A DNA stretch of 64,000 bases, taken from positions 1,178,001 to 1,242,000 of the forward strand of contig NZ_CP151979.1 in the NCBI RefSeq assembly GCF_038593265.1. Direction: 5' to 3'. The translations under genes were made by a program, and so were the position numbers. The DNA comes from Ureibacillus sp. FSL W7-1570. GTDB taxonomy: Bacteria; Bacillota; Bacilli; Bacillales_A; Planococcaceae. Under the pieces are notes generated by a model. That model did not search any database and was not told the DNA's origin. It saw nothing but the letters and a program-made list of their open reading frames with translations. How positions within the stretch are numbered: the first letter of the stretch is position 1; every line of letters begins with the position of its first letter. This document shows, one piece after another, positions 8,745 to 23,307 of the stretch.

Positions 8745-10241
8745 TTAATGCTTCAAGATTTTTAATATGTGATCCATCACAACCAGGTTATTGACAACGA
8801 CCACCTGCAATTTCTTTCTTGTTCTGCTGATGTTTTGGTAAAGCATTTTCGCCGGATGATAATACGGTTTCCTGCACTCCACTTTCGCCGCCAGTCTGTT
8901 ATTCGGCTTATAGTAAAAAGTTTCATCAATCACTGCCGCGACTTGATCGAACTCTTGCCCAATCACATCCGCGGTGGTCACCGCCATTGGATGGTTTCTG
9001 GATGGATCTATGTATCTGGAAGGAGTGAAATCGATCACTTTCCATCCGGCTTCCTGCAAAAAATTCAAGTAGCTTTTCGTAGCCTGGACGGAGGAAAAAT
9101 ATTGGATGCTCACATTGGAATATTGCTGCATCGGCACCTGTGATGACAAATCAAACAATTTTTTGATGAATGAATGGATTTCTTTATTGTATCGGACCAC
9201 TTCCGTCAATTCGTATTTCACCGGTTTCAATGTCGTTTCAATGAGTTTCGGTATTTTATTTTTCATTTCAAAAGCCGTCAACACTTGGCTCGGATCATAA
9301 GAAAAAATGCATTTTGTTTTCGACTTTTCAAGGAGTCGGATAAATTCCTGCAACTTCTTAAGATACAGCCGCTGTGCCTCATCAAAAATGATCAAGTCAT
9401 ATTTGGATAAATTGCTTTCATCATGGATGACATCATGGAACTTGCTGATGGGGACGATCGGCCACCGATATTCTTGGATCAACTTGATATGCCCGCCATT
9501 CAATCGGCCGCAGTTGAAAATAATGACATTTTTTGATTGTCTTATATACTCTTTCGCAATGTCATAGGTGAGCAATGATTTTCCGGTTCCGGGACCACCT
9601 TGGAGGGCAAAGACTTTGGATTGATCGACCAGCTTCGATGTTATGATTTCCCTTTTATATGTACTTTGCTGGGCACTTAAAAAATATTTATCTTCCATAA
9701 ATGCTTCCGTTGCATTAAAGGGGGATACCAAGTAATTCGATGGATCAAACAAATCATCCAAATTTTCGATGACGCGAAGCTGTTGCCGTTGCAATTTTTC
9801 AATTAAAGTATGTATTTCGATTTCATCCACCTGATTATGTTCATTCAACTGATATAATCGGTTTGTCGAAGAAATGTAGGTAAAATTGTAAACGTCCACA
9901 TCCAAAAAATTTAAATAATGCCGGTTTTGAACCAGCTGCTTCGTAACTTTCCCGATATCCCCCTCCCGTTTCAACTCGATATTGATGACGCAATCTTTCC
10001 CGATTCTTAATAAATCAAATTCTTTCCCGATTTGCTTAATCATATAGCCGACATAATAACCATTGTAAATTTCAACCGTTTCGTGCCCTTTTCTTAATGA
10101 TTCCACAAACGCATGCAAATCAAGAAATTCGCTCGTCCTTAATCTTGGGTTGATGCCAAACTGTTCCAAATACTGGATAAAGTTTGTTTCATCCAAATCC
10201 TCTTTCGCATTCAGCAGCGAAAATAAATTGATCGGCTTCAC
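8745..10241 (-). CDS. DUF2075 ATPase/helicase with N-terminal PD-(D/E)XK-like domain
   Basis: 498 residues. Residues 74-91 read EFDLL...INIELK, spacing an Asp (76) and an E-x-K (89-91) as in PD-(D/E)XK nucleases. The second part is a P-loop ATPase of the DUF2075 type: Walker A QGGPGTGKS (214-222), Walker B DLIIFDEAQ (282-290), then helicase-like stretches VTTADVIGQEFDQVAAV and NISRTRKKL near the C-terminus (superfamily-1 motif VI-like). Likely a DNA/RNA-acting nuclease-helicase; a defence or stress role is possible but not shown. It stands alone between rnhC and the transposon insertion. Without the transposon its neighbour would be the LysM-CAP gene now at 23308. Confidence 0.8.
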   Translation of the reverse strand: MKPINLFSLLNAKEDLDETNFIQYLEQFGINPRLRTSEFLDLHAFVESLRKGHETVEIYNGYYVGYMIKQIGKEFDLLRIGKDCVINIELKREGDIGKVTKQLVQNRHYLNFLDVDVYNFTYISSTNRLYQLNEHNQVDEIEIHTLIEKLQRQQLRVIENLDDLFDPSNYLVSPFNATEAFMEDKYFLSAQQSTYKREIITSKLVDQSKVFALQGGPGTGKSLLTYDIAKEYIRQSKNVIIFNCGRLNGGHIKLIQEYRWPIVPISKFHDVIHDESNLSKYDLIIFDEAQRLYLKKLQEFIRLLEKSKTKCIFSYDPSQVLTAFEMKNKIPKLIETTLKPVKYELTEVVRYNKEIHSFIKKLFDLSSQVPMQQYSNVSIQYFSSVQATKSYLNFLQEAGWKVIDFTPSRYIDPSRNHPMAVTTADVIGQEFDQVAAVIDETFYYKPNNRLAAKVECRKPYYHPAKMLYQNISRTRKKLQVVVVNNLVVMDHILKILKH

Positions 10242-10345
10242 TTAAAATATCTCCTTTGAACTAGAATAACCTTTATATGCAAACCACTTTAAACTGAATT
10301 ATAGTCAATTCCCATTTATTAAGCAAAGCGTGTTGCAGAAAAAAA

Positions 10346-10372
10346 GCGCACATTCCTTTAAGAAATGTGCGC
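10346..10372. repeat. Left copy of duplicated 27-bp terminator hairpin (target duplication)
   Basis: Palindrome with arms GCGCACATT and AATGTGCGC, extended by the inner bases. It is identical base for base to 23267-23293. The minus-strand T-run of the original terminator (A-run 10339-10345 on the plus strand) is present only at this copy. It directly abuts the left end of the IS at 10373. Confidence 0.9.
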
Positions 10373-10467
10373 TCAGCTTGTAGACAAAGTCCCTAACTAG
10401 GGGCCAAATCTACAGGCTTTTTTTGTATAATAGGGATAGAATTCTTGGTTAACGGGGGAAATTTAGG

Positions 10468-11823
10468 ATGTTATCGAAGCGTACTGACAATAATCGAAAT
10501 CAATTGGAAATGGTGGCTCTTGATCAATTGGTTCCAGAAAATCATTTGGTAAGGAAGATTGAACAAGCCATAGACTTTGATTTTATTTACGATCTTGTCA
10601 AAGATACCTATTGCCTAGATAACGGAAGGCCTAGTATTGATCCTGTTGTGCTCATTAAAATGGTCTTTGTGCAGTATTTATTTGGTATTCGATCCATGCG
10701 TCAAACGATCAAAGAAATTGAAACCAACGTGGCGTATCGATGGTTCTTAGGATATGGTTTCACAGAGAAAATTCCTCATTTTTCAACGTTCGGCAAGAAT
10801 TATGTTCGTCGTTTTCAAGGTACTGATTTATTTGAACAGATTTTTTATCGTATTTTAAAAGAAGCGATGAATAAAGGATTAGTGGATGCATCTGTTGCCT
10901 TTATTGATTCAACACATGTCAAAGCGAGCGCCAATAAAAAGAAGTTCGATAAGAAAATTGTCCGGGCAGAAACAAAAAGCTATCAAGCGCAATTAGAGTT
11001 AGAGATTAACCAAGACCGTGAAAACCATGGAAAAAAGCCCTTTCCCCCGAAAGAGAAGGAAGAAACCAAGGAAATAAAGGTCAGTACAACCGATCCTGAT
11101 AGTGGCTATTACGTAAAAGATGAACGGGAAAAGATGTTTGCCTATTCTTTTCATACCGCCTGTGATGCAAAAGGCTTTGTCTTAGCTACCAAGGTAACGG
11201 GAGCGAATATTCATGATAGTCAGGTGTTTGGTCAATTACTCGAACAAGTCATCGAAAAAGTAGGCAAACCAACTGCAGTAGCCGTAGATGCCGGATACAA
11301 AACCCCAGCGAATGCGAAAAGTCTATTGGATAAAGAGATTCGTCCAGTCATGCCATATACAAGGCCTAGAACAAAGGACGGTTTCTTTAAAAAGTATGAA
11401 TATGTATACGATGAGCATTATGATTGTTACATCTGCCCAAACAACCAAACTCTTGAATACCGAACAACAACAAGAGAAGGATATCGACAGTACGCTTCGA
11501 AACCGGAAATATGTAAAACGTGCCCATTTTTAGAAAAGTGTACCCAAAGTAAAGATCACACTAAATTTATTCATCGCCACATTTGGGAGCACTATGTGGA
11601 AGAAGTCGACCACTTAAGACATACAGAAATCAATAGAAATATATATGATAAGCGCAAAGAAACGATTGAACGGGTCTTTGCCGATGGAAAAGAGAAGCAT
11701 GGCATGCGATGGACAACTCTACGAGGACTGGAAAAATTGTCCATGCAGGCGATGCTTACTTTCGCTGCCATGAACTTAAAGAAAATGGCAAACTGGACAT
11801 GGAAAAGACCATGTCCAGCCTAA
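10468..11823 (+). CDS. IS1182-type transposase (copy A)
   Basis: 451-residue DDE transposase of the IS1182/IS5-like group. It has an N-terminal domain with DFDFIYDLVKDTY and GRPSIDPVVLIKM, a catalytic core with FIDSTHVKASANKKK (first Asp), AVDAGYKTPANAKSL (second Asp) and ETIERVFADGKEKHGMRW (Glu), and a Cys cluster (CKTCPFLEKC). Differs from the copy at 20030 at two residues (Asn/Asp in VPE-N/D-HL and Lys/Asn in PPKE-K/N-EET). Start ATG 10468 lies 95 bases inside the left end; a -10-like TATAAT occurs in the left end. Intact and probably functional. Confidence 0.93.
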   Translation: MLSKRTDNNRNQLEMVALDQLVPENHLVRKIEQAIDFDFIYDLVKDTYCLDNGRPSIDPVVLIKMVFVQYLFGIRSMRQTIKEIETNVAYRWFLGYGFTEKIPHFSTFGKNYVRRFQGTDLFEQIFYRILKEAMNKGLVDASVAFIDSTHVKASANKKKFDKKIVRAETKSYQAQLELEINQDRENHGKKPFPPKEKEETKEIKVSTTDPDSGYYVKDEREKMFAYSFHTACDAKGFVLATKVTGANIHDSQVFGQLLEQVIEKVGKPTAVAVDAGYKTPANAKSLLDKEIRPVMPYTRPRTKDGFFKKYEYVYDEHYDCYICPNNQTLEYRTTTREGYRQYASKPEICKTCPFLEKCTQSKDHTKFIHRHIWEHYVEEVDHLRHTEINRNIYDKRKETIERVFADGKEKHGMRWTTLRGLEKLSMQAMLTFAAMNLKKMANWTWKRPCPA

Positions 11824-11860
11824 ATAAGAGAAGAATCTTAGAAAATGATGAGCAAAAAAA

Positions 11861-11903
11861 GACAAATCCCAACTCAAATGAAGCATTTGAGTTGGGGTTT
11901 GTC
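11861..11903 (+). terminator. Hairpin terminator inside the right end of IS copy A
   Basis: A 20-bp stem (11861-11880 with 11884-11903) with one G-T pair and a 3-base loop. The outer six base pairs are GACAAA/TTTGTC. In copy B the same outer arms are present but the middle is replaced by another IS (21429-23250). Confidence 0.8.
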
Positions 11904-11913
11904 GACAGTCTGA

Positions 11914-11936
11914 TGAGCTGTTGACACAACAGCTCA
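11914..11936. repeat. Hairpin abutting the right end of IS copy A
   Basis: Arms TGAGCTGTTG and CAACAGCTCA around a 3-base centre, followed by TTTGTTTT on the plus strand. It looks like a former intrinsic terminator used as the insertion target. Confidence 0.7.
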
Positions 11937-11945
11937 TTTGTTTTA

Positions 11946-13040
11946 AAGTTGTATTTTATCGCATTTGTTTTATCACATTCAAGATATAAATATGTAGAAT
12001 GGCTCGATCGACCTTTTCGTACTTCCGATATGATTCGAATGCATGAAAATGCATTTGAATACTTTGGAGGAATGCCAGAAGAAATGGTCTATGACCAAGA
12101 TGCGTTATTAGCAGTTAGTGAAAATGCAGGTGATTTAATTCTTACAGCTGAATTTACTAAATATCATCATACCCGTAAATTTAATGTTTATTTATGTAGA
12201 AAGAGTGATCCGGAATCAAAAGGTAAAATTGAACAGGTTGTGAAATTTGTAAAAAATAATTTTAGCAAAAATCGAGTATTCGATCATCTTTCAGATTGGA
12301 ATCAATCGTGCCACGCTTGGTTGAAAAGAACAGGAAACTATAAAGTTCATCATAATACGAAAAAGAGACCTTCTGAAGTGCACGCCCTGGAAAAGCAACA
12401 CTTAAAGAAAGTCTCTGGTACTTACATTTTCGCAAATGTTTCAACTCCAAGTATAACAAGAAATATCCATAAGGACAATGTTATTCGTTATGAAGGAAAT
12501 CGATATAGCGTTCCTAAAGGAACATATAGAGCAGATGCCCCAAATCTTGCTTATTTACAAGAAGAGGATGGTTGGTTAATTATTCGACTGAAAGAAACTG
12601 GGATGGAGTTAGCAAAGCACCGAATATCCGAAGGAAAAGGATTGATTATTACAGATCCCTCCCATCGGGAACATAGCACAAGTAAACGAGATCTTTTAAT
12701 TCATCAAATTCAAGAAACATTCATAGATAAAGAGAATATTCAATGGTTAATACACAAATTGAAAGAACGATATCCACGTCATTTAGTGGATCAACTCAAA
12801 GTACTACAACAAGCCATCAGAATTTACCCAAATCATTGTGAGGAAGCTTTATCTGAAATGAAGAAACTTGGAATGACCAGTGCAAATGATTTTCGGGATA
12901 TTGCACATGCATTATCTGTACAATATCAAAAAAGTTCACCTAAAATCGTTGAATTGAATGAGAAGTATAAAGATTTATCAGCACCAGAACGATCCGAAGA
13001 CATTTATTTAAAAGTCTTATCTGGAGGTGAAAATGAATGA
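11946..13040 (+). pseudogene. istA: IS21 transposase IstA, 5'-truncated
   Basis: The readable frame begins KLYFIAFVLSHSRYKYVEWLDRPF, which in full-length IstA lies inside the integrase-like catalytic core, so the N-terminal helix-turn-helix and first catalytic Asp are lost. The remaining part keeps MVYDQDALL (second Asp region), SDPESKGKIEQVVKFVKNNF (Glu region) and the C-terminal domain. No ATG with an SD is present. It can be opened only from a TTG at 11949, and a product lacking the first catalytic residue should be inactive. Confidence 0.85.
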
Positions 13041-13792
13041 ATCATCATCCCTATGAAATTTTACAAGATAAATGTCGTACCTTGCGCCTCGCTGAGACGG
13101 CTAAAGAATTACCGAATTTACTCCGTGAAGCTGAAGCAAAGAATTGGACATATCATGAACTGGTTTATGAAATCTTAAGCTATGAGATGCGATGTAGAGA
13201 GCAGAAAAATAATGAGAGATTAATGAAATGGGCAGAGTTCCCAGAAATATTGACGTTTGATACCTATGATTTGAAGGAACAAACAGCTCTTGGTGAAAAA
13301 CAACTAAATGTATTAAAAGAACTGAATTGGATTGAAGAATTTTTTACTTTAATTTTGATGGGACCAACAGGAGCAGGAAAAACACATTTATCCGTTGCAT
13401 TAGGAATACACGCTGTGGAGAGAGGATACAAAGTATCCTTTGTCTCCATGAATCAGCTTATGTATATTTTAAAAACAAAAGAATATATCAATAAATCTAA
13501 AATACGCTACAAACGTATTATAGCTTCGGATTTAATTATTATTGATGATGTCATGTACATGACTTACGAGACTCAGGAAGCCAATCTATTTTTCCAGTTT
13601 ATCTATGATTTATATGATAAAGCAGCATTCATTCTAACCTCTAATAAAGGGCCAAATGAATGGGGAAAATTTCTTGGTGATCCTACTTTAACAACAGCTA
13701 TACTTGACCGTTTATTACATAGGAGTGAAATTATCACTTTCGATAACGAAACGGATAGCATTCGTATGAAATACAGAAAGGTATTATTTTAA
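13037..13792 (+). CDS. istB: IS21 helper ATPase IstB
   Basis: 251-residue DnaC/IstB-like AAA+ ATPase that assists IstA in target capture. Walker A GPTGAGKTH (about residue 110), Walker B LIIIDDVMYM and the sensor stretch FILTSNKGPNEWG are visible. Start ATG 13037 overlaps the istA stop in ATGA. Full length and apparently intact although its partner is broken. Confidence 0.92.
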   Translation: MNHHPYEILQDKCRTLRLAETAKELPNLLREAEAKNWTYHELVYEILSYEMRCREQKNNERLMKWAEFPEILTFDTYDLKEQTALGEKQLNVLKELNWIEEFFTLILMGPTGAGKTHLSVALGIHAVERGYKVSFVSMNQLMYILKTKEYINKSKIRYKRIIASDLIIIDDVMYMTYETQEANLFFQFIYDLYDKAAFILTSNKGPNEWGKFLGDPTLTTAILDRLLHRSEIITFDNETDSIRMKYRKVLF

Positions 13793-13894
13793 TTTAGCAA
13801 ACTGTTGAATCTTAATTGTAGAAAACTGTTTAAAATTATTTGTGGAAAATTGTTTAATTCTACTTGACGGTTACACCCATGTGACAAAACATAA

Positions 13895-13953
13895 AAAAAA
13901 TAAAAAAAAGGAGACATTCAAAACATCGTAACGATGTATAAATGCCTCTTCTT
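13895..13953 (-). terminator. Terminator of the kinase/ABC/regulator operon
   Basis: An imperfect long hairpin (arms around GAGACATT... and ...AATGCCTC with inner ACATCG/CGATGT) whose minus-strand 3' side runs into a T-rich tract (A-runs at about 13891-13908 on the plus strand). It lies about 50-100 bases beyond the stop of the histidine kinase gene. Confidence 0.6.
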
Positions 13954-14002
13954 AATTTCTTTATTCCGTTGAATACTTTAGAAATACCTATTTACAATCG
14001 AT

Positions 14003-14908
14003 TCATTTCTTTACCGTTTTCCACTCACAAATGATTGACAACTGACCATCATTTAATTTGCTAGAAATAGAGCCGTTCATTTTTTCCATTAGACTTTTTA
14101 CAATCGATAAACCCAAGCCAGTGCTTTTCCCAGAACGAGATTGGTCAGCCATATAAAAACGATCAAACATATGCTGAACATCTTGTTCCGTTAACGAAAG
14201 AGCATCATTGGTAATCATTAGACTTGCAACACCATTTTGTTCTTCTAGCCTGATCATGATATTCCCATCAGCGTGCTTTAACGTATTAGAAAGTAAATTT
14301 TCAATTACACGTGTAACAGCTGAATGATCAGCAAAAATAGTGACATTGTTCTCTAAGCCTTCAATTGTTGGCTCCAATCTTTTTTCCTGAAAACGATCAT
14401 AAAAACTTACCAATACTTCTGTCAATAATTTAGTCAAGTTTATTCGTTGTAATTTTAACTCGTAATCAGTGGACTCTAGAACACTCAGTTCAAAAAAATC
14501 ATTCAATAAACGTTCCAATCTTTTTGCACGGTCAAATGCAATAGCCAACAATTCTTTTTTTTCGACTTCTGACAGATTTTCATTATTTGCGATCTGAATA
14601 TAACCAATAATGGATGTAAGAGGTGTACGCAAATCATGAGACATATTTGCCACTGCTTGTCGTTGTTCTTTTTCAAAAAGGACCCTTTTTCGATTTTCCA
14701 TTACATACAAGTCAATTAAACGATTGACTTCAACTCCTAAATGCTCAATATCTTGATCAATGAGTGTAATATCAATTTTTTTATTTGTTTTACGATTGTT
14801 ATACAATTGTAACTGTCTCACGATCTTTCTCACTTCATTTTTAAAAGAAAAAAGCCGAGTGAGTGCAATAAAAGTAATGATAACTAACGTTATAACAATA
14901 AAAATCAC
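14003..14908 (-). CDS. Sensor histidine kinase of an ABC-linked two-component system
   Basis: About 301 residues: a single N-terminal membrane helix (first 20 residues), a linker, then HisKA with MSHDLRTPLTSIIGY (phospho-accepting His near residue 91) and HATPase with NLLSNTLKHA and the G-box GKSTGLGLSIV. It lacks an extracellular sensor domain, as seen in kinases that sense through a partner ABC transporter. GTG 14908 is chosen for its 9-base spacing from GGCGG; GTG 14917 would directly abut that SD. It is the last gene of the run and 9 bases beyond the permease. It probably phosphorylates the regulator at 16694. Confidence 0.9.
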   Translation of the reverse strand: MIFIVITLVIITFIALTRLFSFKNEVRKIVRQLQLYNNRKTNKKIDITLIDQDIEHLGVEVNRLIDLYVMENRKRVLFEKEQRQAVANMSHDLRTPLTSIIGYIQIANNENLSEVEKKELLAIAFDRAKRLERLLNDFFELSVLESTDYELKLQRINLTKLLTEVLVSFYDRFQEKRLEPTIEGLENNVTIFADHSAVTRVIENLLSNTLKHADGNIMIRLEEQNGVASLMITNDALSLTEQDVQHMFDRFYMADQSRSGKSTGLGLSIVKSLMEKMNGSISSKLNDGQLSIICEWKTVKK

Positions 14909-14926
14909 TGCTCCCACCCGCCTTTT

Positions 14927-15694
14927 TTATTTGATTTCTTTTCGATTAAATATAAAAATACCACAGAAAACAATGAAAATTAAGGAAACAGTACCAACGA
15001 TAAGAGCTGTAAGCATTTGGCCCTTCGTCATTATCGGAGTAAATACATCACTAAACTGTTGAAATATAGAATACTTATACAAAAATTCAATAACAGATGA
15101 CATAGGTAGCTTTTCAACAACAAATATTACAATAGTAAATAAAATCGAAAAAATAATCGTTTTACCACTATCTTCGGTCACGACAGCAAACAACGTTATT
15201 AACGCTATATAGCTTAGAAAAGGGAGTAAAAATAATCCAAATGACCTTGCTAAGTATAGAAGACCAACATTGTTTAGGATATCACCATGACCTAATAATA
15301 ATACCATTAAAAGACCTATGATTAATGGAATGAATATTGTAATAAGAACCGCACCCAATGAAAAAACAAGAAACTTCGCTAAAAATATATGGGAGCGTTT
15401 ATTTCCACTCATAACTTGATTTTTTATAACACTACTAGGTGAAAAATCAACGGCGATATAAAATCCAGCCAATGTGCTAACAATTAAATTGAAAAATAAT
15501 AACGTTATAAATGGAGATAATGCATTTAATTTACCTAATCCTACTTGCATAAAATTAGTATTGTCCATTATCCACCAATCAATCATTACTAAATAATGTA
15601 ATAGCAAACTGACACCCGTTACGATTACAGTAATACCCCAAAATGACCGGTTCCTTTTTAATTTATATAATTCTGCTAGAATTAAATTAGTCAT
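14927..15694 (-). CDS. ABC transporter permease, peptide-resistance (BcrB/LanG-like) type
   Basis: 255 residues with six predicted membrane helices and no large extracellular loop, as in ABC-2 permeases for bacitracin or lantibiotic immunity. ATG 15694 has SD GGAG with 7-base spacing and overlaps the end of the ATPase gene by 8 bases, indicating coupling. Substrate cannot be deduced; a cationic or lantibiotic-like peptide is the usual one for such modules. Confidence 0.85.
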   Translation of the reverse strand: MTNLILAELYKLKRNRSFWGITVIVTGVSLLLHYLVMIDWWIMDNTNFMQVGLGKLNALSPFITLLFFNLIVSTLAGFYIAVDFSPSSVIKNQVMSGNKRSHIFLAKFLVFSLGAVLITIFIPLIIGLLMVLLLGHGDILNNVGLLYLARSFGLFLLPFLSYIALITLFAVVTEDSGKTIIFSILFTIVIFVVEKLPMSSVIEFLYKYSIFQQFSDVFTPIMTKGQMLTALIVGTVSLIFIVFCGIFIFNRKEIK

Positions 15695-16610
15695 ATGTTG
15701 CATCTCCAATCCGTTTTGAAAAATAGTTCTCTAAACTATCACCATTTAGTGAGAGATGTTCTAATATAAGTCCACGATTGGTTAAAATACGAGAAACGGT
15801 CCGAATATCATCGAGATAGTTATAAAGTTTTATGGTCCCATCTGGCATTACTTCAAAATCATCTGCTTGTAATTGTTCTTCTAAGACCGTAGCTCCCAGT
15901 TGTGGTTGATCAACCTTAATCCGCAAATGTTGTCTGCATTTTTCATCTAATTCTTTTGTTGTCATTTCCTCTAACAACCGTCCTTTGTGAATAATACCGA
16001 AACATGTTGCGGTTTTGTATAGTTCCGTTAAAATATGGCTAGATATTAAAACTGTAAGTCCTTTTTCCCGATTTAATTTATGAATTAACTCCCTCATTTC
16101 AACAATTCCCATTGGATCAAGTCCATTTGTTGGTTCATCGAGAATTAAAAATTCTGGATCGCTTAATAAGGCAATAGCAAGCCCTAGCCTTTGTTTCATT
16201 CCTAGAGAAAAGTTTTTCACTTTTTTCTTCCCTAAATCTTGAAGACCGACTAGTTCCAACGTTTCACTTATACATGTTTTACCTGGAATCCCTTTTTGTA
16301 AGCGATGCACTTCTAGGTTTTCAGAAGCTGACATATTTGGAAAAAGTGCTGGATGTTCAATAATCGCACCAATTCTTTTTTGGGCTTCACATAAGTTTTT
16401 AGATTGATATTCACCAAAAATATGGATAGTTCCACTTGTCGGAAAAGCTAGTCCTGTAATTAACCGTAATAATGTTGATTTTCCAGCACCATTTTGACCA
16501 ATTAAACCATAAATTTCACCCTTTTTAATATTGATATTGACATCCTTTAAAGCATAATCATGATGATATTTTTTTGTTAATCCATTTGTACGTAAAATAT
16601 ACTCATCCAT
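15687..16610 (-). CDS. ABC transporter ATPase, peptide-resistance (BcrA-like) type
   Basis: 307 residues: Walker A GQNGAGKST (38-46), signature FSLGMKQRLGLA, Walker B FLILDEPTNGLDP, H-loop ISSHI, plus the roughly 90-residue C-terminal extension found in BcrA-type ATPases. Start ATG 16610 follows GGGGGG at 8-base spacing. It forms the exporter with the permease at 14927. Its own promoter region (16620-16700) holds four regularly spaced TTAAGA motifs. Confidence 0.92.
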   Translation of the reverse strand: MDEYILRTNGLTKKYHHDYALKDVNINIKKGEIYGLIGQNGAGKSTLLRLITGLAFPTSGTIHIFGEYQSKNLCEAQKRIGAIIEHPALFPNMSASENLEVHRLQKGIPGKTCISETLELVGLQDLGKKKVKNFSLGMKQRLGLAIALLSDPEFLILDEPTNGLDPMGIVEMRELIHKLNREKGLTVLISSHILTELYKTATCFGIIHKGRLLEEMTTKELDEKCRQHLRIKVDQPQLGATVLEEQLQADDFEVMPDGTIKLYNYLDDIRTVSRILTNRGLILEHLSLNGDSLENYFSKRIGDATYD

Positions 16611-16659
16611 TTGTGTATCCCCCCATTTCGGACATTAACTATAATATGGAACATAATAA

Positions 16660-16699
16660 TTAAGAGAGGCTTAAGATAAATCTTAAGAAAAGCTTAAGA
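16660..16699. promoter_or_regulatory. Array of four TTAAGA motifs upstream of the ABC operon
   Basis: TTAAGA occurs at 16660, 16671, 16683 and 16694 on the plus strand, i.e. steps of 11, 12 and 11 bases, one helical turn each. It lies just upstream of a -10-like TATTAT (16641-16646, minus strand) for the ABC operon and extends into the last bases of the regulator gene. Regular direct repeats are typical of OmpR-type regulator binding; the same hexamer recurs at 18058-18087. Confidence 0.6.
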
Positions 16700-17383
16700 T
16701 TTCATCCGATAACCCATTCCCCATATTGTTTCAATATACTCTTCATTTGGATTTGCCTTCGTAAGCTTATTTCGAAGGTTACTTACATGTACATTTACCG
16801 TGTTATCATCTCCGTGATACGGCTCATTCCATACACTCTCGAAAACATTAGCTTTAGAAAAAACTTTATACGGTGTTGTCATTAATAGTTTTAATATATT
16901 GAACTCCCGAGCGGTAAGAGAAACATTGACACCATTGACCAAAACAGTCTTCGAATCTAAATCAAGTTGAATATCTTTATGAGTTAATATTTGCTTTTTC
17001 GGTTCATTCGGGTAGCGAGTTCTCCGTAGAAGCGAATCAATCCTAGCAGATACTTCATCAATATCAAAAGGTTTTGAGATAAAGTCATCAGCACCTTTTC
17101 GCAAACTCGTAATTTTCGTTCTCTTTTCATTTTTAGCTGAAATGATAATAACCGGCGTAGATCCTTTTTCTGTAATTTTTTCAAGTACTTCTTCTCCTGC
17201 CATGCCCGGTAACATTAAATCTAGCAACACTAAATCCCACTGTTGTTTTTCTAAATATAATAGTGCCTCTGTCCCAGAATAAGCCGGTTGGGGATGATAG
17301 TTGCTCATTTTAATAATTCGACATAAAAGTTGATTTATGTCATTATCATCTTCAACAACTAAAATGTTAATCATGTCATTCAT
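16694..17383 (-). CDS. OmpR-family response regulator
   Basis: 229 residues. The receiver domain has the acidic pair EDD (11-13), phospho-acceptor Asp 55 in LVLLDLMLPG and Lys in ISKPFD. The C-terminal winged helix ends with ...NTVNVHVSNLRNKL and ETIWGMGYRM. ATG 17383 is preferred: it follows GGAAGGG at suitable spacing, while upstream in-frame codons encode a charged non-family tail. Partner of the kinase at 14003 and likely ligand of the TTAAGA arrays. Confidence 0.93.
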   Translation of the reverse strand: MNDMINILVVEDDNDINQLLCRIIKMSNYHPQPAYSGTEALLYLEKQQWDLVLLDLMLPGMAGEEVLEKITEKGSTPVIIISAKNEKRTKITSLRKGADDFISKPFDIDEVSARIDSLLRRTRYPNEPKKQILTHKDIQLDLDSKTVLVNGVNVSLTAREFNILKLLMTTPYKVFSKANVFESVWNEPYHGDDNTVNVHVSNLRNKLTKANPNEEYIETIWGMGYRMKS

Positions 17384-17411
17384 TGTAATCCCTTCCTTTC
17401 TTCCTTTAATC

Positions 17412-17993
17412 TTACATTTCAACTGGGATCAATGAGATTGGGTAACTCCTTATATTTCTTTCATCTTTATTAATGTAATCATGAAGTTGACCTTCATATA
17501 CCTGTTCCAATCCGTTTATTACTTGTAAATCGTTCGGAGCGATAAGGGATATCGGTTTTCTAAAATCAACAACGTTACTATTTTTTAATACTGACGCCAC
17601 AAATTGTGAACAAAAAAATGCTTTCTTTCTTTTTATTGGTTTATTGATGATAAAACCAAATAACCCGATAAAATTATAACGAAAGTCTTCTTTTTGTTTA
17701 TCCATTTTTGTTACATATGCTTTCATCTTTTTTAATTGTTCATCGGTTACTGAAAGTGAATAAATGATACAATTGGCATTTTTAAATAAACCTTCCTCTA
17801 CATTCTCTTTAACAAGTCCCCCATCAAAAGGGTTATTCACTTTTTTCCGTCCAAAGCTATATACCTCTGATAATTCAGCATCAAAGGATATTGATGCATG
17901 ATTATAAGGTTTTTTTGTAAATATTTTGATTAACCTTGTAAATAGTGTACCTGTATCCGTTAAAAGAATATATATCTTTTTTTCTTTCATCAT
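17412..17993 (-). CDS. Permuted NlpC/P60-like (YiiX/DUF830-type) putative cysteine hydrolase
   Basis: 193 residues. The layout NHASIS (His 32), a Glu at 43 and a later FFCSQFVA (Cys 128) is the circularly permuted papain-like arrangement, with His first and Cys second, known from the YiiX/LRAT group. There is no signal peptide or membrane helix, so it should act in the cytoplasm, on an amide, peptide or lipid substrate that cannot be named. ATG 17993 follows AAGGGGG at 8-base spacing. It sits directly upstream of the regulator gene with three TTAAG-type motifs behind its promoter, so it probably belongs to the same regulon. Confidence 0.65.
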   Translation of the reverse strand: MMKEKKIYILLTDTGTLFTRLIKIFTKKPYNHASISFDAELSEVYSFGRKKVNNPFDGGLVKENVEEGLFKNANCIIYSLSVTDEQLKKMKAYVTKMDKQKEDFRYNFIGLFGFIINKPIKRKKAFFCSQFVASVLKNSNVVDFRKPISLIAPNDLQVINGLEQVYEGQLHDYINKDERNIRSYPISLIPVEM

Positions 17994-18057
17994 TCGAATA
18001 TCCCCCTTATCTGTTATCGAATGGTGTATTTAATATACAAAACAAAACATAAAAAGA

Positions 18058-18087
18058 TCTTAATGGAATTCTTAAGAATCTCTTAAG
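18058..18087. promoter_or_regulatory. Array of three TCTTAA motifs upstream of the NlpC-like gene
   Basis: TCTTAA at 18058, 18070 and 18081 (steps 12 and 11). The core CTTAAG is self-complementary, so the motif equals the TTAAGA array at 16660-16699. Lies 65-95 bases upstream of the start at 17993, suggesting autoregulation of the module. Confidence 0.55.
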
Positions 18088-18120
18088 TTTTACAAATGTT
18101 GAATGGAATGCGATTCATAG

Positions 18121-18178
18121 TGTTGACATTTTATATCACCTGTAATATATTTATTACAGGTGAAACAAAATGTCAACA
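18121..18178 (+). promoter_or_regulatory. Promoter embedded in a 58-bp nested palindrome (candidate ArsR-type operator)
   Basis: Two perfect 12-bp inverted repeats share one centre: the outer pair TGTTGACATTTT/AAAATGTCAACA (18121-18132, 18167-18178) and the inner pair TCACCTGTAATA/TATTACAGGTGA (18136-18147, 18152-18163). Within it lie TTGACA (18123-18128) and TATATT (18146-18151) separated by 17 bases, a good sigma-A promoter for the operon starting at 18197. A repressor bound here would cover both promoter elements. Confidence 0.7.
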
Positions 18179-18196
18179 TAGGGGGGTAAAAAATTA

Positions 18197-18577
18197 GTGA
18201 GGCTTAGATTGACTAATGAATTCGTTATTTATTTTCTCATCAGAGTTAGTCTCGTGATTTTTATCCGATTGACCGAGTTGTTCCGATTAAGTTCAGCCTA
18301 CACTCATATTCACTTAGCCGGTTGGGGAATGATTGCATTGGCAGGAATGATCTACCACGTTTTTCAAACAGCGGGTGCGACCAAATTAACACAAGTTCAT
18401 GATCAATTTCTGATGATTGGAATACCACTGTTATGCATAGATATAATTTTTTCTAGACTGGGACAATATGAAATAGGTAGTTTAATCAATTGGGTTGGCG
18501 GGATTCTCATCCTTTTCGGTGTAATATTTTTTGTCATTAACGCTATGAATAATGTGAGAGTAATGGCTCGATCATGA
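18197..18577 (+). CDS. Small cytochrome-oxidase-subunit-I-like membrane protein
   Basis: 126 residues, four predicted membrane helices. The stretch THIHLAGWGMIALAGMIYHVF places His-x-His, Gly-Trp and a further His as in the haem-binding helices of heme-copper oxidase subunit I, and a later His lies in LTQVHDQF. Short Bacillus proteins of this kind are often annotated cytochrome-c oxidase, but they lack the full 12-helix enzyme and their role is unknown. Haem binding is inference. The start is GTG 18197, 10 bases after GGGGGG. Its stop overlaps the regulator start (ATGA). Confidence 0.65.
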   Translation: MRLRLTNEFVIYFLIRVSLVIFIRLTELFRLSSAYTHIHLAGWGMIALAGMIYHVFQTAGATKLTQVHDQFLMIGIPLLCIDIIFSRLGQYEIGSLINWVGGILILFGVIFFVINAMNNVRVMARS

Positions 18578-18906
18578 TTAAAGAACCTGTAAATGGTGAT
18601 GAGCTTCTAGCCTTATTTGAAGCCCTTTCCAATCCACACCGTATGAGAATCATCGCTATTTTGGCTAATGGAAGACAATATGTCAGTCAATTAGCTCGGG
18701 AAGCTGAAATGAGTCGTCCTTTACTTTACATGCATCTACAAAAATTAGAAAATGCCGGCATTGTAAATACTAAAATGGAAGTTTCCGATGATGGAAAAGC
18801 AATGAAATACTATGAACTTGTAAACTTTGATTTCCATATTACACAGGACTTAATCAAAGAGGCTGTTAAAACATTATCAATAAAAAAGAAAGAAGGTAAA
18901 AAATAA
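18574..18906 (+). CDS. ArsR-type winged-helix transcriptional regulator
   Basis: 110 residues with the ArsR-like fold: FEALSNPHRMRIIAILANGRQYVSQLAREAEMSRPLLYMHLQKLENAGIV forms the helix-turn-helix and wing. No metal-binding ELCVCDL motif is present, so it is not a classical metal sensor. Start overlaps the upstream gene by ATGA. Probably the repressor of its own operon at the 58-bp palindrome. Confidence 0.88.
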   Translation: MIKEPVNGDELLALFEALSNPHRMRIIAILANGRQYVSQLAREAEMSRPLLYMHLQKLENAGIVNTKMEVSDDGKAMKYYELVNFDFHITQDLIKEAVKTLSIKKKEGKK

Positions 18907-19163
18907 TGAGTGAAGAAGTCATTTGGGGTTTAGCAGGAATGGCATTTGTAGTATTAGTTGTGGCAATTTTGTTCATTCCAATTGCAAAAATCGCACAAAC
19001 AAAAATTCAAACAACCAAAGAAGAAGTCTATCAAAAATTAGCAGCAGAAGCAATTGAAGCACAAAAGGAAACAAATAGAATTAACGAAAAACTTGCAGAT
19101 GAAATTTCAGATTTAAAAGAAAAAATCGCTTCAATTGAACGTATTTTGAAAGAAGTAGAATAG
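18906..19163 (+). CDS. Small membrane-anchored coiled-coil protein
   Basis: 85 residues: a membrane helix (about 6-27, WGLAGMAFVVLVVAILFI) then a charged coiled coil to the end (INEKLADEISDLKEKIASIERILKEVE). Start ATG 18906 overlaps the regulator stop in TAATG, so it is the third gene of the operon. No family is recognised; the shape suggests a scaffold or partner for the membrane protein at 18197. Confidence 0.75.
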   Translation: MSEEVIWGLAGMAFVVLVVAILFIPIAKIAQTKIQTTKEEVYQKLAAEAIEAQKETNRINEKLADEISDLKEKIASIERILKEVE

Positions 19164-19181
19164 CAAATCTGTTTGATAAAC

Positions 19182-19236
19182 GAAGGGGGATCCAAAAGGT
19201 CTTCAATGACTGATGGATCCTCCCTTCTCTATTTTT
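19182..19236 (+). terminator. Terminator of the 18197-19163 operon
   Basis: Hairpin arms AAGGGGGATCCA (19184-19194) and TGGATCCTCCCTT (19214-19225) around a 19-base loop, followed by a T-rich tail. Confidence 0.7.
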
Positions 19237-19343
19237 ATGCTATTTTTCGTAGGATGCTCATTGCCTGAGGGACAATATGTTTTATCCATATTATGTTGCC
19301 AAAATTTCTATTTAACAGTACTTTTATTAGTACATTTACATAT

Positions 19344-19370
19344 ACAATGAGAAATATTGATCATATATTA
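19344..19370 (+). promoter_or_regulatory. Sigma-K-like promoter
   Basis: AC (19344-19345), 16 bases, CATATATTA (19362-19370), matching the established mother-cell sigma-K pattern AC-N16/17-CATANNNTA. It lies 30 bases upstream of the start at 19400. Confidence 0.5.
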
Positions 19371-19399
19371 ATTAATAAACTAGTTAAAGAGGTGTCACC

Positions 19400-19846
19400 T
19401 TGCGACTGGGATCATGTGGAAGTTGCAAAGAGCCTGAAAATCAACCAAGTCTATTTTCATCTCAGACAGAAGTGGATTTGTCAATTCCCTTTGGTGTTGG
19501 TACTGAAACACCGGTATTAATGTTATCCGTTCCAACCACATCAAATGCTCAATCTATTTTTATTAATGGACTTGTTCAAGTTCAAAGTATAATTCCGTTA
19601 GGTTTATTGTCATATCAGTATGGAGTCAGATTAAGAATCCGCCGAAATGGAACTCTTTTGTTTACTCAAACTTTACAACAAGGAAATTCTATTACATTAA
19701 CTTTATCTTTTACACAGATTGGCGCCATTCCAATTTCTATTGTTGATACGAATCCTACTCTCGGTACTAATAATTATACTGTTACATTAGAGTTTTTTCT
19801 GAGGTCTGCTACTGGAGTATCTTACCGCTCAATCGCGCTCTATTAA
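19400..19846 (+). CDS. Beta-rich protein, probable spore-surface component
   Basis: 148 residues beginning MRLGSCGSCKEPENQ and continuing as alternating hydrophobic/polar strands rich in Thr, Asn and Ser (SVPTTSNAQSIFINGLVQV, QQGNSITLTLSFTQIG, TNNYTVTLEFFLRS), a pattern expected of a jelly-roll or TNF-like fold as in exosporium proteins. No transmembrane helix. The start is TTG 19400 with SD AAAGAGGTG five bases upstream. The sigma-K-like promoter supports late mother-cell expression. I cannot name a family with certainty. Confidence 0.55.
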   Translation: MRLGSCGSCKEPENQPSLFSSQTEVDLSIPFGVGTETPVLMLSVPTTSNAQSIFINGLVQVQSIIPLGLLSYQYGVRLRIRRNGTLLFTQTLQQGNSITLTLSFTQIGAIPISIVDTNPTLGTNNYTVTLEFFLRSATGVSYRSIALY

Positions 19847-19913
19847 TGCCCTAGTGATATAAAATATCCTACTGTTTAGGTAAAACTCTTAATCGTTCAT
19901 ATACTTAAAAAAA

Positions 19914-19934
19914 CCTATTGATTCAATCAATAGG
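19914..19934. repeat. Hairpin abutting the left end of IS copy B
   Basis: Perfect palindrome with 10-bp arms CCTATTGATT/AATCAATAGG around one base. An A-run precedes it on the plus strand, so on the minus strand it reads as a terminator. The IS end begins at the next base. Confidence 0.75.
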
Positions 19935-20029
19935 TCAGCTTGTAGACAAAGTCCCTAACTAGTGGCCAAATCTACAGGCTTTTTTTGTATAATAGGGATA
20001 GAATTCTTGGTTAACGGGGGAAATTTAGG

Positions 20030-21385
20030 ATGTTATCGAAGCGTACTGACAATAATCGAAATCAATTGGAAATGGTGGCTCTTGATCAATTGGTTCCAGA
20101 AGATCATTTGGTAAGGAAGATTGAACAAGCCATAGACTTTGATTTTATTTACGATCTTGTCAAAGATACCTATTGCCTAGATAACGGAAGGCCTAGTATT
20201 GATCCTGTTGTGCTCATTAAAATGGTCTTTGTGCAGTATTTATTTGGTATTCGATCCATGCGTCAAACGATCAAAGAAATTGAAACCAACGTGGCGTATC
20301 GATGGTTCTTAGGATATGGTTTCACAGAGAAAATTCCTCATTTTTCAACGTTCGGCAAGAATTATGTTCGTCGTTTTCAAGGTACTGATTTATTTGAACA
20401 GATTTTTTATCGTATTTTAAAAGAAGCGATGAATAAAGGATTAGTGGATGCATCTGTTGCCTTTATTGATTCAACACATGTCAAAGCGAGCGCCAATAAA
20501 AAGAAGTTCGATAAGAAAATTGTCCGGGCAGAAACAAAAAGCTATCAAGCGCAATTAGAGTTAGAGATTAACCAAGACCGTGAAAACCATGGAAAAAAGC
20601 CCTTTCCCCCGAAAGAGAATGAAGAAACCAAGGAAATAAAGGTCAGTACAACCGATCCTGATAGTGGCTATTACGTAAAAGATGAACGGGAAAAGATGTT
20701 TGCCTATTCTTTTCATACCGCCTGTGATGCAAAAGGCTTTGTCTTAGCTACCAAGGTAACGGGAGCGAATATTCATGATAGTCAGGTGTTTGGTCAATTA
20801 CTCGAACAAGTCATCGAAAAAGTAGGCAAACCAACTGCAGTAGCCGTAGATGCCGGATACAAAACCCCAGCGAATGCGAAAAGTCTATTGGATAAAGAGA
20901 TTCGTCCAGTCATGCCATATACAAGGCCTAGAACAAAGGACGGTTTCTTTAAAAAGTATGAATATGTATACGATGAGCATTATGATTGTTATATCTGCCC
21001 AAACAACCAAACTCTTGAATACCGAACAACAACAAGAGAAGGATATCGACAGTACGCTTCGAAACCGGAAATATGTAAAACGTGCCCATTTTTAGAAAAG
21101 TGTACCCAAAGTAAAGATCACACTAAATTTATTCATCGCCACATTTGGGAGCACTATGTGGAAGAAGTCGACCACTTAAGACATACAGAAATCAATAGAA
21201 ATATATATGATAAGCGCAAAGAAACGATTGAACGGGTCTTTGCCGATGGAAAAGAGAAGCATGGCATGCGATGGACAACTCTACGAGGACTGGAAAAATT
21301 GTCCATGCAGGCGATGCTTACTTTCGCTGCCATGAACTTAAAGAAAATGGCAAACTGGACATGGAAAAGACCATGTCCAGCCTAA
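20030..21385 (+). CDS. IS1182-type transposase (copy B)
   Basis: 451 residues, identical to the transposase at 10468 except for two substitutions (Asp for Asn near residue 25 and Asn for Lys near residue 196). All catalytic motifs (FIDSTHVKAS, AVDAGYKTP, ETIERVFADGK) are intact. Start and spacing from the left IS end (95 bases) are the same as in copy A. The gene itself is not interrupted; only the downstream terminator is. Confidence 0.93.
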   Translation: MLSKRTDNNRNQLEMVALDQLVPEDHLVRKIEQAIDFDFIYDLVKDTYCLDNGRPSIDPVVLIKMVFVQYLFGIRSMRQTIKEIETNVAYRWFLGYGFTEKIPHFSTFGKNYVRRFQGTDLFEQIFYRILKEAMNKGLVDASVAFIDSTHVKASANKKKFDKKIVRAETKSYQAQLELEINQDRENHGKKPFPPKENEETKEIKVSTTDPDSGYYVKDEREKMFAYSFHTACDAKGFVLATKVTGANIHDSQVFGQLLEQVIEKVGKPTAVAVDAGYKTPANAKSLLDKEIRPVMPYTRPRTKDGFFKKYEYVYDEHYDCYICPNNQTLEYRTTTREGYRQYASKPEICKTCPFLEKCTQSKDHTKFIHRHIWEHYVEEVDHLRHTEINRNIYDKRKETIERVFADGKEKHGMRWTTLRGLEKLSMQAMLTFAAMNLKKMANWTWKRPCPA

Positions 21386-21428
21386 ATAAGACAAGAATCT
21401 TAGAAAATGATGAGCAAAAAAAGACAAA

Positions 21429-23250
21429 GAGGTTGGGACAAAACCCCCTCTAAAATGGAAACAGCCCATGAAATTTTGGAATGAAATTTCATGGGCTGTT
21501 TTTCATTTTTTCAATAAAAAATAAGGACCTCTTCTGTTAAAATTAAGTTAGCACACAAAACCTAACAGAAAGAAGGGTCCTTATGTTCAAATATTATAAC
21601 ATGAATCAATTAGTTTTGCCTCTAGATTTAGAAATAAAATTACAAGAAAATGATATTGCCTTCCACATTCACCATTTAGTTGAAAGTATTCCAGATGAAG
21701 CCTTCCAGCCGTTTCTTCGAAATACAGGTTGTCCTGCTTATCATCCACGCATGATGCTAAAAATTATTTTGTGTGCCTATTCGCAGTCTGTCTTTTCAGG
21801 TCGAAAAATTGAAGCGCTATTAAAGGACAGTATACGAATGATGTGGTTGGCACAAGGATATGAACCAAGTTATCGGACGATCAATCGTTTTCGTGTGCAT
21901 CCGGAAGTAAAAGAATTAATTCGTCAATGTTTTGTCCAATTCCGTTGCCAACTGGTGGAAGAAAAGTTAATCGATCAAGAAGCCATTTTTATCGATGGTA
22001 CGAAGATTGAAGCGAATGCCAATAAATTTACTTTCGTATGGAAGAAATCCATTGAAAAATACAACCAAAACTTAATTGAAAAGTCCAATCAGTTATACAA
22101 CGAACTATTAGAAAAAGAAATCATCCCTGAAATGGAGCGGGAAAGTGATGGGGAATTGTCCGTAGAAGAACTCGCTCAAATGGTGCAACAAGTCGATGAA
22201 GTCATTAAGGAATATGACCAAAAAATCGAATCATCGCCCGATGCCACAGAACGAAAAGCATTAAGAAGCGAACGAAAATATCCAAAACAAGCGTACAAAC
22301 AATTAATAGACTTCATTCTACGCAAACAAAAGTATCAAAAAGCCTTGGACATCTTGGGGGAACGAAATAGTTATTCCAAAACCGACCCGGATGCGACGTT
22401 CATGCGAATGAAAGACGACTATATGAAAAACGGTCAATTGAAAGCTGGATACAACGTACAAATCGCAACAGAAGGTCAATACGCACTAGCTTATAGCATC
22501 TTTCCAAATCCTACTGATACACGTACATTAATTCCGTTCTTGAATGAGATAGAAAAGGATTATTTTCCGTTGCCAAAGTACATTGTCGCAGATGCTGGTT
22601 ATGGTAGTGAACCAAACTATGAAGACATCCTTTCGAATCGAAAATGTGAGGCACTCATTCCATATACCATGTATGAGAAGGAACAAAAGAAGAAATATAA
22701 ACAAAATCCATTTCATCCAGACAATTGGACGTATGACGAAGAAAGTGATACCTACACGTGTCCGAATCAGCAACGTGTAACATTCAGATATCATTCTGTA
22801 CGTACAGATAAGACCGGTTTCAAACGAGAATTCAAAATTTACGAATGTGAAAACTGTTCAGGATGCCCATTCCGTTCATCATGTACAAAAGCAAAGGAAG
22901 GCAACCATCGAAAAGTCATGGTGAATGAAAAATGGGAACAACAAAAAGAATATGTAAGAACGAAGCTTTCAGAAGAAAAAGCAGGTTCTATTTTCCGTCA
23001 ACGTAAAATTGACGTAGAACCAGTTTTTGGATTCTTGAAGGCTAATTTGCGTTTCACTCGATTTTCCGTCCGAGGAAAATCGAAGGTAGAAAATGAAATG
23101 GGGATTGCCTTAATGGCCGTGAATTTACGGAAATACACGGCCAACAAAAATCAACTGACCAAAAATAATGGAGAGAAATGGAAAAAGGAGAATTTGAGTT
23201 GGCTCAAATTCTCCTTTTTCCTATTTTGAAGCTAGTTTTGTCCCAGCCTC
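21429..23250 (+). mobile_element. Second IS1182-family element nested in copy B (1822 bp)
   Basis: Terminal inverted repeats GAGGTTGGGACAAAA (left) and, inverted, GAGGCTGGGACAAAA (right), the well-known IS1182-group ends. Strong hairpins lie just inside both ends: a 16-bp stem around 21460-21500 and a 17-bp perfect stem at 23182-23198/23203-23219. They would insulate the transposase from read-through. No simple target duplication is seen beyond the palindromic GACAAA/TTTGTC arms of the host hairpin. Confidence 0.9.
21583..23229 (+). CDS. IS1182-family transposase
   Basis: 548-residue DDE transposase. It has N-terminal YHPRMMLKIILCAYSQ and SYRTINRFR motifs, first Asp in FIDGTKIEANANKF, a long charged insertion (about 150-260), second Asp in IVADAGYGSEPNYE, Cys cluster CENCSGCPFRSSC and Glu in DVEPVFGFLKANLRF. 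Start ATG 21583 follows AGAAAGAAGGG. Intact. The last codons run through the terminator hairpin at 23182. Confidence 0.95.
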   Translation: MFKYYNMNQLVLPLDLEIKLQENDIAFHIHHLVESIPDEAFQPFLRNTGCPAYHPRMMLKIILCAYSQSVFSGRKIEALLKDSIRMMWLAQGYEPSYRTINRFRVHPEVKELIRQCFVQFRCQLVEEKLIDQEAIFIDGTKIEANANKFTFVWKKSIEKYNQNLIEKSNQLYNELLEKEIIPEMERESDGELSVEELAQMVQQVDEVIKEYDQKIESSPDATERKALRSERKYPKQAYKQLIDFILRKQKYQKALDILGERNSYSKTDPDATFMRMKDDYMKNGQLKAGYNVQIATEGQYALAYSIFPNPTDTRTLIPFLNEIEKDYFPLPKYIVADAGYGSEPNYEDILSNRKCEALIPYTMYEKEQKKKYKQNPFHPDNWTYDEESDTYTCPNQQRVTFRYHSVRTDKTGFKREFKIYECENCSGCPFRSSCTKAKEGNHRKVMVNEKWEQQKEYVRTKLSEEKAGSIFRQRKIDVEPVFGFLKANLRFTRFSVRGKSKVENEMGIALMAVNLRKYTANKNQLTKNNGEKWKKENLSWLKFSFFLF

Positions 23251-23266
23251 TTTGTCGACAGTCTGA

Positions 23267-23293
23267 GCGCACATTCCTTTAAGAAATGTGCGC
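23267..23293. repeat. Right copy of duplicated 27-bp terminator hairpin
   Basis: Identical to 10346-10372. It lies 14 bases beyond the stop of the LysM-CAP gene (minus strand). It has lost its T-run because the IS end follows directly; the T-run is stranded at the left copy. Confidence 0.9.
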
Positions 23294-23307
23294 TTCTTGC
23301 TTCATCA

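Follow-up and report, generated by a model that had tools for sequence, protein, structure and literature searches.

What does a transposase recognise when the sequence duplicated at its target is an entire hairpin? The question is raised by a 64,000-nucleotide stretch of the complete 3.28-Mb genome of Ureibacillus sp. FSL W7-1570 (contig NZ_CP151979.1, positions 1,178,001 to 1,242,000; hereafter the window), in which positions 10374-23265 hold a unit of 12,892 bp: two direct copies of an insertion sequence (IS) of the IS1182 family, here called IS-A, around an AT-rich cargo of 8 kb. The duplication left by a DDE transposase is normally short and almost constant in length, because the two active sites act at a fixed distance. 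A preliminary description of the window had reported identical 27-bp palindromes outside the IS pair; these are present, and the exact outer repeat measures 29 bp (AGCGCACATTCCTTTAAGAAATGTGCGCT; 10345-10373 and 23266-23294), that is, the 27 bp and an outer A:T pair. The parts of the unit that bear on the question are as follows.

10345..10373, no strand: left copy of hairpin A, the 29-bp target duplication; minus-strand terminator by score, with its T-run opposite 10339-10345
10374..11912, plus strand: left IS-A (IS1182 family); ends CAGCTTGTAGACAAA and TTTGTCGACAGTCTG; transposase at 10468-11823, 451 amino acids
11861..11903, plus strand: 3'-end hairpin of intact IS-A; its counterpart in the right copy is replaced by IS-B
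11913..11937, no strand: hairpin B, inner flank of the left IS-A; scores as a terminator on the plus strand
19913..19935, no strand: hairpin C, inner flank of the right IS-A; scores as a terminator on the minus strand
19936..23265, plus strand: right IS-A; transposase at 20030-21385; interrupted by IS-B
21429..23250, plus strand: nested IS-B (IS1272-like, IS1182 family); 548-amino-acid transposase at 21583-23229; replaced 31 bp of the IS-A hairpin
23266..23294, no strand: hairpin A, right copy, without T-run

The unit has the structure of a composite transposon, with two IS copies and a duplication on the outer flanks only. The inner flanks are unlike, as described beforehand, and hairpins A, B and C all differ from one another; B and C are themselves complete hairpins abutting IS-A, a feature absent from that description, and the stems at the four IS-A ends measure 12, 11, 10 and 12 bp. 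The two IS-A copies differ at five bases, counted up to the IS-B interruption. The terminator scan listed the left copy of A (minus strand), B (plus) and C (minus), the T-run of each facing away from the IS; the right copy of A, behind the stop codon of the LysM-CAP gene, is not in its list. The T-run previously called orphaned was found as described: the left hairpin keeps it (a plus-strand A-run at 10339-10345) and the right one has no terminator score. Two simple explanations of this locus were rejected. Chance does not account for the hairpin repeat, as control windows reach a stem of at least 7 bp in only 1.5% of cases (see below), and independent insertion of both IS copies at this place would be expected to give each its own hairpin on both sides, whereas the inner flanks are B and C.

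Whole-hairpin duplication in the IS-A clade

Three further complete copies of IS-A stand alone in the host genome, between hairpin duplications of 28, 21 and 21 bp. One of them (L003) sits within the istB gene of an IS21 element, and a copy of its target is present in the cargo of the window:

13421..13441, no strand: single hairpin inside istB of the IS21 remnant, the empty site of L003

This site is uninterrupted, with one hairpin, in four IS21 copies (the one in the window, two more in the host genome and one in the congeneric genome G020); the copy interrupted by IS-A has two hairpins, and its flanking 621 and 400 bases are identical to the cargo copy. Since the IS21 copies without IS-A hold one hairpin and the interrupted one holds two, it is the insertion itself that duplicates the hairpin. 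This target lies in a coding gene and is missing from the terminator-like list; therefore, targets other than terminators can be used.

The generality of the pattern was assessed in 120 copies of the clade: the three solitary ones in the host genome, 37 stretches and 80 loci from other genomes. A target duplication was detected by script in 101 of them (2, 33 and 66 in the three sets, respectively), without mismatch in 97; it is 19-42 bp long (median 25), and all 101 sequences are different. A stem of at least 7 bp, with a single mismatch and at most four unpaired bases at the ends tolerated, is found in every one of these duplications, and the best stem spans the duplication from foot to foot in 94. 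Windows of equal length taken from the ends of the same loci contain such a stem in 676 of 45,304 cases (1.5%), a rate that errs high, as control windows may overlap the real hairpin in 22 loci. When the other 19 copies were rechecked with looser ends, six proved to have a hairpin duplication (L004, L095, L175, L191, L208, and L223), which brings the total to 107 of 120. Another five have unlike hairpins on the two sides (L098, L114, L118, L204, and L229, although L114 and L229 are apparently the same locus counted twice), and six have one recognisable end, which abuts a hairpin (L151, L156, L159, L192, L195, and L199). A second composite was looked for by seeking the hairpins of L098, L114 and L118 in nine partial-copy loci, and they were not found there; three of the nine (L288, L293 and L294) have no recognisable IS end. 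Duplication of the complete hairpin is the rule for the IS-A clade, and the earlier statement that the duplicated target is the whole hairpin is well supported by the solitary copies, the exact empty site and these 107 copies.

As nearly all recognisable ends abut a hairpin, the hairpins could be taken for passengers carried at the IS ends and not for target sequence; but the 101 duplications are all unlike, and the empty site in istB already has its hairpin, which refutes this explanation for that one site and leaves it hardly any credibility overall. A stronger case can be made for targeting of a primary sequence, or of the A/T-rich context of terminators, by staggered cuts that happen to bracket a hairpin: an A- or T-run adjoins the duplication in 92 of the 101 cases (at least four A among the six bases before it, or at least four T among the six after it), its first base is A in 86, and its last base is T in 90. 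Such targeting nevertheless seems quite improbable to us, given that the feet are kept in 94 of the 101 duplications in spite of their variable length, that no two duplications agree in sequence, and that one exact target is in istB, outside the terminator-like list. A length that varies while the feet stay constant argues for cuts placed by folding and points to the secondary structure of the DNA as the signal in the target; where IS-A cuts seems to be determined by how the target folds and not by which letters it contains.

Several observations weigh against this view, at least in a strict form. At 81 of the 101 sites one or more extra base pairs could form outside the duplication, so the cut lies near, and not always at, the last possible pair. 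Two of the 120 copies deviate from the rule, L221 having no hairpin at its right end (the left end has one) and L222 having none; moreover, the left end of L290, a partial copy in G020, abuts the end of another element and not a hairpin. On the protein side, the AlphaFold model was of poor quality (mean predicted local distance difference test score, pLDDT, 43.5) and no use was made of it, and a search for a solved structural relative gave none that was convincing (best E-value 0.096). Finally, 4-bp repeats are listed for the family members ISPse1 (in the part of PMC3281130 consulted) and ISCaa15 (likewise in PMC3196728); hence, the hairpin rule is not family-wide.

Assembly of the composite unit and its cargo

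We think it rather likely that the unit is a composite transposon, that joining at the 5' feet duplicated the whole hairpin, and that the outer ends moved the block into hairpin A. The hairpin would fold out of the target DNA, the 3' ends of IS-A would be joined to the two 5' feet of the folded-out hairpin, one per strand, at cuts whose position we infer, and gap filling would then duplicate the entire hairpin. In a donor, one IS-A would have entered hairpin B and another hairpin C; the outermost ends would have carried the block (IS, hairpin B, cargo, hairpin C, IS) as a unit into the LysM-CAP terminator, hairpin A. An IS1272-like element also replaced the 3'-end hairpin of the right IS-A at some stage.

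The host locus agrees with the preliminary description in part. The LysM-CAP gene directly neighbours the DUF2075 gene, with no cargo between them, in the congeners G020 and G021, as expected of an empty site; the gap is too divergent to show hairpin A. An exact-arm search in 25 genomes of the genus found hairpins B and C only here and revealed no donor. The left and right IS-A are different alleles, the left one matching the solitary copy L002 at the variable sites and the right one not, and the cargo has a G+C content of 32-35% vs. 35-46% in eight flank windows. The unique hairpins B and C, the AT-rich cargo and the unlike IS alleles together suggest that the unit is probably of outside origin and brought its inner junctions along ready-made.

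The same flanks would also be produced in two steps: an IS-A inserts into hairpin A and gives A-IS-A, and a circle or other incoming DNA (IS, B, cargo, C) then joins it by homologous recombination between IS copies. This course, which we hold possible but on the unlikely side, would also account for the identity of the left IS-A to a solitary host copy at the variable sites, and copies between unlike hairpins, as inter-copy recombination would yield, do exist in other genomes. Against it, two events are required, as well as a resident copy at A, of which there is no trace. Insertion as one event, as previously proposed, fits the flank pattern, which fails to set it apart from recombination with a resident hairpin-IS-hairpin. 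In addition to the flanks, which the two-step course explains equally well, two points count against transposition of the whole block: the left IS-A agrees with L002 at the variable sites, as a resident copy might, and neither a same-species empty site nor a circular form nor transposition was observed; no other strain of the species turned up. A single transposition of the 12.9-kb unit is the likely, though unproven, course.

The cargo comprises the following features.

11945..13850, plus strand: IS21-family remnant; istA without its N-terminal part, istB complete
14003-14917, minus strand: histidine kinase
14927-15709, minus strand: ABC permease-like protein (weak match)
15687-16610, minus strand: ABC ATPase, lantibiotic-protection-like (score below the model cut-off)
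16694-17422, minus strand: OmpR-type regulator
17412..17993, minus strand: 193-amino-acid protein, no confident family
18197..19163, plus strand: small membrane-like protein (no family), ArsR-type regulator, and 85-amino-acid protein weakly like DUF948

The IS21 remnant has a reported identity of 100% to copies at other sites of the host genome and in G020, which suggests a recent history within this bacterial group. It starts straight after hairpin B and its T-run (11938-11950) with the start of istA missing, and this junction reads as an old deletion joint inside the cargo. For a 148-amino-acid cargo protein no family was found. Among the other genes are those of a two-component system and an ABC transporter; a role of the cargo in peptide sensing or resistance would be a guess. 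Upstream of the membrane-like and ArsR-type genes lies a 27-bp inverted repeat (18121-18178, arms 93% complementary, 4-bp spacer) that overlaps a promoter-like match and is a possible operator. Beyond the left end of the unit, the gene called DUF2075 in the preliminary description (8745-10241, minus strand) matches the PADLOC models AbiO (4e-168) and Nhi (9e-166) and is a candidate anti-phage defence gene.

Hairpin-replacing and loop-duplicating relatives

Both elements of the window belong to the IS1182 family, as they exceed the cut-off of the family model NF033551 (270 bits) with 493 bits for IS-A and 452 bits for IS-B; terminal inverted repeats, characteristic of the family, are present. 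The DDE_Tnp_1 domain covers residues 143-437, and D147, D274 and E401, which are invariant in 12 aligned sequences, are the predicted DDE catalytic triad.

The interruption of the right IS-A by IS-B is absent from the preliminary description. Over its length, the IS-B transposase has about 52% amino acid identity to IS1182-family transposases from staphylococci, which we take to be those of IS1272. Its site holds an intact hairpin in four sister copies of IS-A; the interrupted copy keeps the feet of that hairpin, GACAAA and TTTGTC (six bases each), and has lost the 31 bases between them. Both ends were recognised in 23 of the 24 longest IS-B copies of the host genome, and none of these has a duplication of more than 2 bp. 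IS-B is thus hairpin-replacing (hairpin lost, no duplication), the loss being demonstrated for one copy; IS-A is not, as its hairpin is kept and duplicated. In the IS-B flanks at large the signal is weak: self-complementarity of at least 4 bp was found in 7 of 23, compared to 3.2 expected from shuffled pairs (p about 0.003). The nested copy is the firm case of hairpin replacement by IS-B. In G020, a short element of about 300 bp, bounded by IS-B-like ends and too small to hold a transposase gene (L120, G020:C1:2364000-2369000), occupies the gap that matches the position of hairpin A in the window. Also in G020, the IS-A ends L121 and L289 abut hairpins resembling that within the short IS-B-ended element, and L290 abuts its end, as if the IS-A and IS-B types targeted each other.

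A distinct clade, IS-D, with a transposase of about 490 amino acids, is present in relatives (L252-L282); none was found in the host genome at the cut-off used. Among 31 loci (one of them only 33% identical at the amino acid level), both ends were recognised in 29 and a duplication in 24: 15 of 8 bp, eight of 9 bp and one of 6 bp. The centre of the duplication lies within 2 bp of that of the best palindrome in 20 of the 24; the palindrome is significant at 0.05 in 14. Outward arms of at least 6 bp directly beside the duplication are present in 8 of 24 vs. 0.38 in shuffles, and some duplications lie in long palindromes. IS-D mostly duplicates 8-9 bp near the loop, often of a terminator-like hairpin, which is clear for the group and not for each copy.

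In a 24-row transposase tree, which carries long-branch warnings, each of the three groups forms one side of a branch, with support of 98/97 for the duplicating, 100/100 for the loop and 100/100 for the replacing group. Some rows are labelled by kinship and not by test: ISEfa7, an Exiguobacterium copy, two IS-B relatives and the staphylococcal row. The duplicating group has ten rows, including ISEfa7, which is without a hairpin at its left end and cut at its right end, and the Exiguobacterium copy, whose two hairpins differ; for the replacing group, the tested row is IS-B of the window only, the behaviour of IS1272 being taken from papers. A quick scan of five other lineages and of a family of about 600 amino acids in the host genome gave no clear target reading.

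Overall, we lean towards the view that IS1182-family transposases recognise folded hairpins, mostly terminators, and that three subclades cut at the 5' feet, cut at the loop or lose the hairpin; the length of the duplication in the first would then be a property of the target structure and not of the enzyme. Feet, loop and replacement would offer a natural three-way comparison of how a transposase reads structure. If true, this would amount to evidence, drawn from genomes, that the hairpins of terminators do fold out of cellular DNA, and would suggest how IS1182-type elements can settle next to genes while harming them little. In annotation, a long palindromic repeat adjoining an element of the IS-A clade can be read as a target duplication that marks the boundary of an element or composite.

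Comparison with known systems

Parts of the above may already be recorded in ISfinder, which appears to list long direct repeats for some members of the family. Among the open-access papers listed by our search, hairpin targeting by the IS1182 family is treated in detail only in two papers on IS1272. Palindrome targeting has been ascribed to members of the family (Siguier et al., 2015, via PMC4923244 and PMC5678879), a preference that IS-A shares; according to PMC5678879, no detailed data were given there. A large survey reports an excess of IS1182 elements between genes that converge (PMC9208149), in keeping with landing in terminators.

IS1272, itself of the IS1182 family, transposes by stem-loop replacement, deleting the hairpin and leaving no duplication (PMC5678879, PMC4923244). 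It resembles IS-A in family and in its hairpin or terminator targets without sequence consensus, but IS-A retains the hairpin and duplicates it entire; IS-B looks like the IS1272 type, having replaced its hairpin. As in the unit of the window, cargo is mobilised in TnSha1, TnSha2 and Tn5405 with the involvement of IS1272 or IS1182 (PMC4923244, PMC4438569); unlike that unit, TnSha1 is described as removing part of the target hairpin (PMC4923244).

The closest precedent is a scheme in PMC5678879 of three possible pathways for a cruciform-attacking transposase: replacement, duplication of the whole stem-loop and duplication of the loop. In its Figure 13, pathways b (whole stem-loop) and c (loop) are drawn as alternatives beside the one proposed for IS1272; IS-A fits b and IS-D fits c, so that both are matched here by natural elements. 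The three geometries fit a sorting by clade, with replacement in IS-B, pathway b in IS-A and pathway c in IS-D, and the whole-hairpin duplication that the scheme had drawn as a possibility is here the rule of a natural clade.

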